Below are positions 21,903-23,191 of a stretch of DNA of 23,191 nt, in pieces. The notes beneath the pieces were generated by a model, which saw only the letters and a list, made by a program, of their open reading frames with translations, was not told the origin of the DNA and made no database searches. Origin of the DNA: Pseudomonas sp. (GTDB lineage: Bacteria; Pseudomonadota; Gammaproteobacteria; Pseudomonadales; Pseudomonadaceae); contig DQGF01000370.1 in the NCBI GenBank assembly GCA_003525045.1, forward strand, positions 1-23,191, written 5' to 3'. The position numbers and the translations under genes are program-made. Each line of letters starts with the position of its first letter. The first letter of the stretch is position 1.

Positions 21903-22817
21903 TTAGTGACGCTTGCGATTGCTGATCAAGGTACCCACACCGGTATCGGTGAAGATCTCCAGCAGAATCGCATTCGGCACCCGGCCATCGATGATCAGCG
22001 AGCTACCTACGCCGCCTTGCACAGCTTCCAGCGCGCAACGGATCTTCGGCAACATGCCGCCGTAGATGGTGCCATCGGCGATCAAATCGTCAACCTGTTG
22101 GGTAGTCAGACCGGTCAGGACCGTGCCCGACTTGTCCATCAGGCCGGCGATGTTGGTCAGCAGCATCAGCTTCTCGGCTTTCAGCGCTTCGGCAACCTTA
22201 CCGGCCACCAGGTCGGCGTTGATGTTGTACGACTCGCCATTGGCACCGACGCCGATTGGCGCGATCACCGGGATGAAATCGCCTTTGACCAGCAGGTTCA
22301 GCAGGTCGGTGTTGATCCCGACCACTTCGCCTACCTGGCCGATGTCGATGATTTCCGGCTGGGTCATCTCCGGTGTCTGGCGGGTCACGGTGAGCTTCTT
22401 CGCACGGATCAGCTCGGCGTCTTTACCGGTCAGGCCGATGGCGCTGCCGCCGTGACGGTTGATCAGGTTGACGATGTCCTTGTTGACCTGACCACCGAGG
22501 ACCATTTCCACCACGTCCATGGTCTGCGCGTCAGTCACCCGCATGCCATCGATGAAGTGGCTCTCGATCGACAGACGCTTGAGCAGGTCGCCGATTTGCG
22601 GGCCGCCGCCGTGCACGATGACCGGCCGGATGCCGACCAGCCGCAGCAGCAGGACGTCCTTGGCGAACTGCTCCTTGAGGTCGGCCTGCTCCATCGCCGC
22701 GCCCCCGTACTTGATCACGAGGGTCTTGCCCTGGAAGGCACGGATATAGGGCAGCGCCTCGATGAGCACTTCGGCGCGCTGCACCAGCTCCGGGATCGGC
22801 GTCATGCGCTCGTCCAC
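21903..22817 (-). CDS. argB: Acetylglutamate kinase, chimeric (Pseudomonas C-terminal part, foreign N-terminal part)
   Basis: Acetylglutamate kinase phosphorylates N-acetylglutamate in arginine synthesis. The 304-aa frame is open throughout. From about residue 76 ([19 protein letters not shown]) to the end ([13 protein letters not shown]) it reads like Pseudomonas ArgB. Residues 1-67 (for example [37 protein letters not shown]) do not match the Pseudomonas N-terminus as I know it, and their codons are almost all G/C-ending. The nucleotide-binding KYGG (37-40) and the HGGGPQI loop are intact, so a hybrid protein could fold. The start is GTG 22817 (GAGG upstream) or ATG 22805. It is 17 bp downstream of the hslU stop. 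See findings for the join. Confidence 0.85.
22590..22619. other. Inferred lineage switch (chimera junction) inside argB
   Basis: Between codon 67 (22619) and codon 76 (22590) the protein changes from non-Pseudomonas to Pseudomonas-like sequence. The region encodes the near-universal VHGGGPQIG loop, where unrelated argB genes can share a run of identical bases. Confidence 0.75.
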
Positions 22818-22834
22818 CTTCTACCTCGTCCGCC

Positions 22835-23191
22835 TCATAAGATGTAGCGGGAGAGATCCTCGTCCTTCACCACGTCGGCCAGCTGCGCGTGCACGTACTC
22901 CGCGTCGATCACGAGCTCCTGCCCCACCAGGTTCGGGGCGTCGAAGGAGATCTCCTCCAGCAGCCGCTCCATCACCGTGTACAGGCGGCGGGCCCCGATG
23001 TTCTCGGCCCGCTGGTTCACCGTGAACGCGATCTCGGCGATGGCCTCCACCGCGTCGGTGGAGAAGCGCAGCGCCACCCCTTCCGTCCTCAGCAGCTCAA
23101 CATACTGTCGGATCAGGGCATTCTGAGGTTCGCTCAGAATGCGGATAAAATCCGGCCGCGTCAAGGGCTCCAGCTCGACCCGGATCGGGAA
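22835..23191 (-). CDS. hslU: ATP-dependent protease ATPase subunit HslU (partial, C-terminal end, foreign)
   Basis: The last 118 residues of HslU, the AAA+ unfoldase that feeds the HslV peptidase; the 5' part lies beyond the right edge. Visible are [19 protein letters not shown], the sensor-2 motif [19 protein letters not shown], and the C-terminal tail DEDLSRYIL that docks into HslV. The frame runs through the window edge, so the TTG at 23164 is not a real start. Nearly all third codon positions are G or C, unlike the Pseudomonas genes to the left. Pseudomonas hslU lies elsewhere with hslV; algC is expected here. hslU-argB adjacency is known from deltaproteobacteria such as Geobacter, but I cannot name the donor. 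Confidence 0.93.

Follow-up and report, generated by a model that had tools for sequence, protein, structure and literature searches.

The analysed window is the entire contig C590 (23,191 b) of genome G000, which, judged from named database hits, belongs to the genus Pseudomonas. Its right end carries an argB gene and, upstream of it, the C-terminal part of hslU (Table 1). The argB product as assembled matched the model TIGR00761 over the whole profile (positions 1-231 of 231) with 260.2 bits, above the curated cut-off of 151.3. The hslU tail matched TIGR00390 at positions 324-441 of 441 (154.5 bits, E 4e-45); because the gene is truncated, a score under the cut-off for the whole protein (362.45) is to be expected. 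No promoter-like or terminator-like sites were found when positions 22500-23191 were scanned.

Table 1. Features at the right end of contig C590, in window coordinates.
Feature	Position	Strand	Description or basis
argB, whole ORF	21903-22817	-	acetylglutamate kinase, 304 codons, hybrid as assembled
argB, Pseudomonas part, C-terminal ~228 residues	21903..22588	-	identity to G005, fixed sites
junction zone, VHGGGPQI codons	22589..22618	-	0 fixed inter-lineage differences
argB, Rokubacteria-type 5' part, codons 1 to ~66	22619..22817	-	identity to P0001, fixed sites
hslU, Rokubacteria-type, C-terminal 118 residues	22835..23191	-	truncated by contig end

Genome G000 consists of 610 contigs with 5.41 Mb, a completeness of 79.66% and a contamination of 0.02, and from its fragmentation and completeness we infer that it came from a metagenome. 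It was compared with 24 relatives of the same genus (G001-G024). Window positions 2621-22600 matched G005 in pieces with 90-94% identity, and both were collinear from about position 3193 onward, except for a segment at ~18512-20196; the first 458 b of this query were located ~37 kb away in G005. At the left end, positions 1-2700 had matches of 79-89% in all five same-genus genomes queried, and no foreign DNA was found there against these five genomes. Because the same-genus matches are at 79-94%, the left end and body of C590 are, judged from sequence comparison, ordinary Pseudomonas DNA.

The segment at ~18512-20196 is absent in G005, which has only ~109 b at the corresponding place, and it carries a gene which we take to be a gltS-like sodium/glutamate symporter gene. 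The contig body also has a ~95-base repeat in three copies (window 3661-3759, 11657-11752 and 21744-21839). This repeat matches on both strands (GTAGGAGCGAGGCTTGCCCGCGAA type), has dozens of similar places in G005 and presumably resembles the REP-type repeats of Pseudomonas.

The initial annotation proposed that argB changes its lineage in the middle of the gene, at about 22590-22619 and within the conserved GGGPQI codons. Protein identities do flip at this motif (GGGPQIG). Before it, the ArgB of C590 had 60.0% amino acid identity with ArgB of G005 (65 aligned residues) and 92.2% with the Rokubacteria-type ArgB of G109 (64 residues); after it, the identities were 99.6% (228 residues) and 55.3% (219 residues), respectively. 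In an alignment of 5 Pseudomonas argB genes (from the 24 same-genus genomes) and 10 Rokubacteria-type genes, 69 sites were invariant within each group and different between the groups. All 12 of these sites above position 22616 were of Rokubacteria type and all 57 at or below it were of Pseudomonas type, so all 69 agree with a mid-gene switch. The flanking informative sites were Rokubacteria-type to 22619 and Pseudomonas-type from 22588, in accordance with the proposed coordinates, and no fixed difference was present across the conserved codons between them. A looser rule, by which the two groups only had to be without a common allele, gave 107 sites and the same picture (22/22 Rokubacteria-type, 85/85 Pseudomonas-type). 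These sites point to a single clean switch between 22588 and 22619.

The third codon positions also differed along the right end. The GC3 was 0.955 in argB codons 1-66, 0.891 in the hslU tail and 0.811 in argB codons 77-304, while the 16 other ORFs of the window had a pooled value of 0.746. For the whole right end it was 0.914, and the maximum in 250 stretches of 185 codons from the 16 concatenated ORFs was 0.859. The description of these third positions as almost purely G/C is therefore right for the argB part and slightly strong for hslU.

The hslU tail had its five best loci in records all titled Rokubacteria, with 73-78% amino acid identity. In this search, the sixth locus was titled Methylomirabilota, and the seventh was from Thermodesulfobacteriota with 67%. 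When positions 22600-23191 were compared with 95 genomes of the Rokubacteria phylum, 88 had a match and the best one (G109) was 86% identical over the full length; a close Rokubacteria parent was thus not found among these 95 genomes. The database ArgB P0001 matched residues 1-67 of the ArgB of C590 with 100% identity and the remainder with 54%. Because P0001 is similar to the ArgB of G109 on both sides of the motif (92% and 95%), it represents the foreign type without a switch. The gene order in G109 is, as we take it from the look of the translations, topA-xerC(-like)-hslV-hslU-argB-argD-argF-argG. As hslU stands beside argB in this order, the hslU-argB arrangement is native to the Rokubacteria lineage. 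The right end of C590 (its last ~580 b), with the 5' part of argB and the hslU tail, is of Rokubacteria (Methylomirabilota) type.

The hslU-argB adjacency had been considered foreign to Pseudomonas, which agrees with the same-genus relatives: in 24 of 24 the matches were distant from each other or on separate contigs. It had also been called typical of some deltaproteobacterial-type genomes. Such an adjacency is indeed present in loci L009, L015 and L043, but the donor type here is Rokubacteria/Methylomirabilota. A deltaproteobacterial donor was ruled out, since the best six loci all carry Rokubacteria or Methylomirabilota titles and the seventh, from Thermodesulfobacteriota, reached only 67%. 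A 9.4-kb Rokubacteria-type query gave 11 matches in G000, one in C590 with 78% and ten others with 65-76%, a range that would be expected for native orthologues. With this one query, no further stretch of the same foreign region was found in the G000 bin. A plasmid collection searched with the right end gave 25 records, none of them spanning 80% of it.

The exact runs at the junction are short. On the Pseudomonas side, locus L111 was identical with the window at 22576-22616, and on the Rokubacteria side L003 and L008 were identical at 22597-22613 and L136 at 22603-22625. The overlap with L111 was 14 b for L136 and 17 b for both L003 and L008, and pairwise overlaps were 11 to 17 b overall. Positions 22597-22616 (20 b, in the VHGGGPQI codons) are covered by exact runs when relatives of either lineage are combined. 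Among 152 loci, this exact 20-mer was present, beyond the window's own copies, only in Pseudomonas G017 (L091, L111), and it was not found in full in any Rokubacteria locus. Because the 20-mer is in none of these Rokubacteria loci and the best match in a Rokubacteria genome is 86%, the length of the word common to the true parents can be given only as an estimate, about 20 to 30 bases.

The algC gene, which the initial annotation had expected upstream of argB and found missing from the window, is located on contig C15 of the same genome. A search for the Pseudomonas algC-argB 5' end on another contig had been suggested as a check, and this end was found at the very start of C15: positions 1-245 (minus strand) encode the C-terminus of AlgC, a stop, and then residues 1-37 of a Pseudomonas ArgB. 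In G005, the match of C590 ends and the match of C15 begins at the same place of argB. The two matches overlap by ~35 b, since the similarity of the foreign part suffices for it to be aligned, and ~80 b of native argB (window equivalent ~22617-22695) are on neither C590 nor C15.

Directly after this part, at 246-3410, C15 (L117) has five N runs of 278-365 b each. Their flanks in G005 were 4, 27 and 40 b apart and in two cases overlapped by ~20 b. The runs look like scaffold gaps with misestimated length. Masking by the data holders is less likely, because the length would then have been preserved. Since the flanks nearly touch in G005, the algC-argB region was assembled badly. Contig C461 of G000 had matches to parts of a native-type hslV and to both ends of hslU, and its hslU tail had 54% amino acid identity with that of C590.

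The two halves of ArgB were searched separately, as had also been suggested, and the best 120 of 7999 and the best 120 of 8000 candidates were compared. A protein was regarded as the same hybrid if its N part had at least 80% and its C part at least 85% identity to the ArgB of C590. None of the 240 best-listed proteins combined both at this level; near-identical records may be absent from these lists, and the product of C590 itself was unlisted. Among the matches listed, the highest C-part identity in the N-half list was 59.6% and the highest N-part identity in the C-half list was 69.1%, and four of the 240 proteins had no hit for one half.

Other ArgB proteins with a mid-gene switch were seen in these lists. 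Among the best 120 for the Pseudomonas half, 11 (P0123, P0124, P0125, P0128, P0130, P0137, P0147, P0149, P0160, P0165 and P0239) had a non-Pseudomonas N part, with 16-67% identity to G005, and in one of them ArgB is fused to a sulfatase-like N part. The N parts of the remaining entries had at least 81.8% identity to G005, except for 4 of the 120 which were too short to judge. A two-rate fit, weak for P0239, placed the switch at residues 51-61 in five proteins, at 88 in three, and at 85, 108 and 151 in one each. Ten of the 11 were listed with one contig and one with none; a single contig is no proof of falsity, because many unswitched entries also have one. In the best 120 for the N half, the N part of P0009 and P0013 was of Rokubacteria type, while their C part had only 60% identity to G109. 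The switched database proteins may likewise stem from false joins in metagenome contigs, and some may be genuine. In the Pseudomonas-type ArgB proteins P0122 and P0127, the first 37 residues are the same as on C15, and short internal deletions are present.

We consider that the right end of C590 is almost certainly a false join, of the assembler or of the library kind, and not a biological feature. This reading is favoured because the switch is clean, the foreign piece reaches the contig end, the native half of argB is on C15 and native-type hslV and hslU match C461. A mis-joined contig was the likeliest explanation in the initial annotation too, and the native 5' end on C15 and the native-type hslVU on C461 now support it. 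The Pseudomonas contig would break inside argB, beside the locally fragmented algC-argB assembly. It would then be extended through the short stretch common to both organisms, the VHGGGPQI codons, and enter a Rokubacteria genome, presumably present in the same sample, at its argB-hslU region. A de Bruijn-type assembler probably made this join through the shared word.

An identical sequence would result from a chimeric read or amplification product formed in library preparation and then faithfully assembled; this would still be a false join, though of another kind. Short shared stretches are also preferred sites of template switching. A single molecule would be expected to have low depth, and would seldom give a consensus of ~570 b, and we regard this variant as rather unlikely.

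A real homologous crossover is far less probable still, to the point that we hardly expect it. By this explanation, a Pseudomonas acquired hslU-argB DNA from Rokubacteria and recombined within argB, giving a working hybrid kinase and a second hslU. The 5' part of argB is in frame with the Pseudomonas part via the shared codons, the ORF crosses the junction uninterrupted, which any functional hybrid would require, and the TIGR00761 match covers all positions of the profile; an open frame is also expected of a false join, because the join is in shared codons. The junction does lie in near-identical codons, where recombination is possible too, but the parent proteins are just ~55-60% identical on either side. 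The foreign DNA continues to the contig end without return to Pseudomonas, and the same hybrid was seen in none of the 240 best-listed proteins. The crossover is disfavoured because it needs a second argB start and a second hslU, with the native argB broken at exactly this spot on a different contig. The algC-argB 5' end on C15 would have to be a second, separate copy, while of the four AA_kinase places in G000 only C590 holds a Pseudomonas ArgB body, and the foreign hslU would be redundant with that on C461. If true, the crossover would be a rare inter-phylum hybrid enzyme.

With the false join as the preferred reading, the hybrid ArgB and an "hslU-argB arrangement in Pseudomonas" should be kept out of phylogenetic trees and transfer surveys as a matter of data hygiene. 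The comparable switch in 11 of the best-listed 120 proteins suggests that false joins in database entries may recur at the conserved argB codons.

Both parents of the hybrid are ordinary ArgB proteins of the TIGR00761 family; in contrast, the C590 product as assembled is a hybrid, which probably exists in no cell. It is reported that assemblers create chimeric contigs at conserved stretches shared between species (PMC8171044). Like such chimeric metagenome contigs, C590 has two organisms in one contig and a switch in a short conserved stretch, and its foreign part is at the contig end with the native remainder on another contig. The non-overlapping parts of C590 match different species, the left part Pseudomonas and the right part of Rokubacteria type, and the true continuation of the Pseudomonas parent is on C15. 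Nothing notable sets C590 apart from such contigs, and the distance between its two phyla would explain why the shared word is short.
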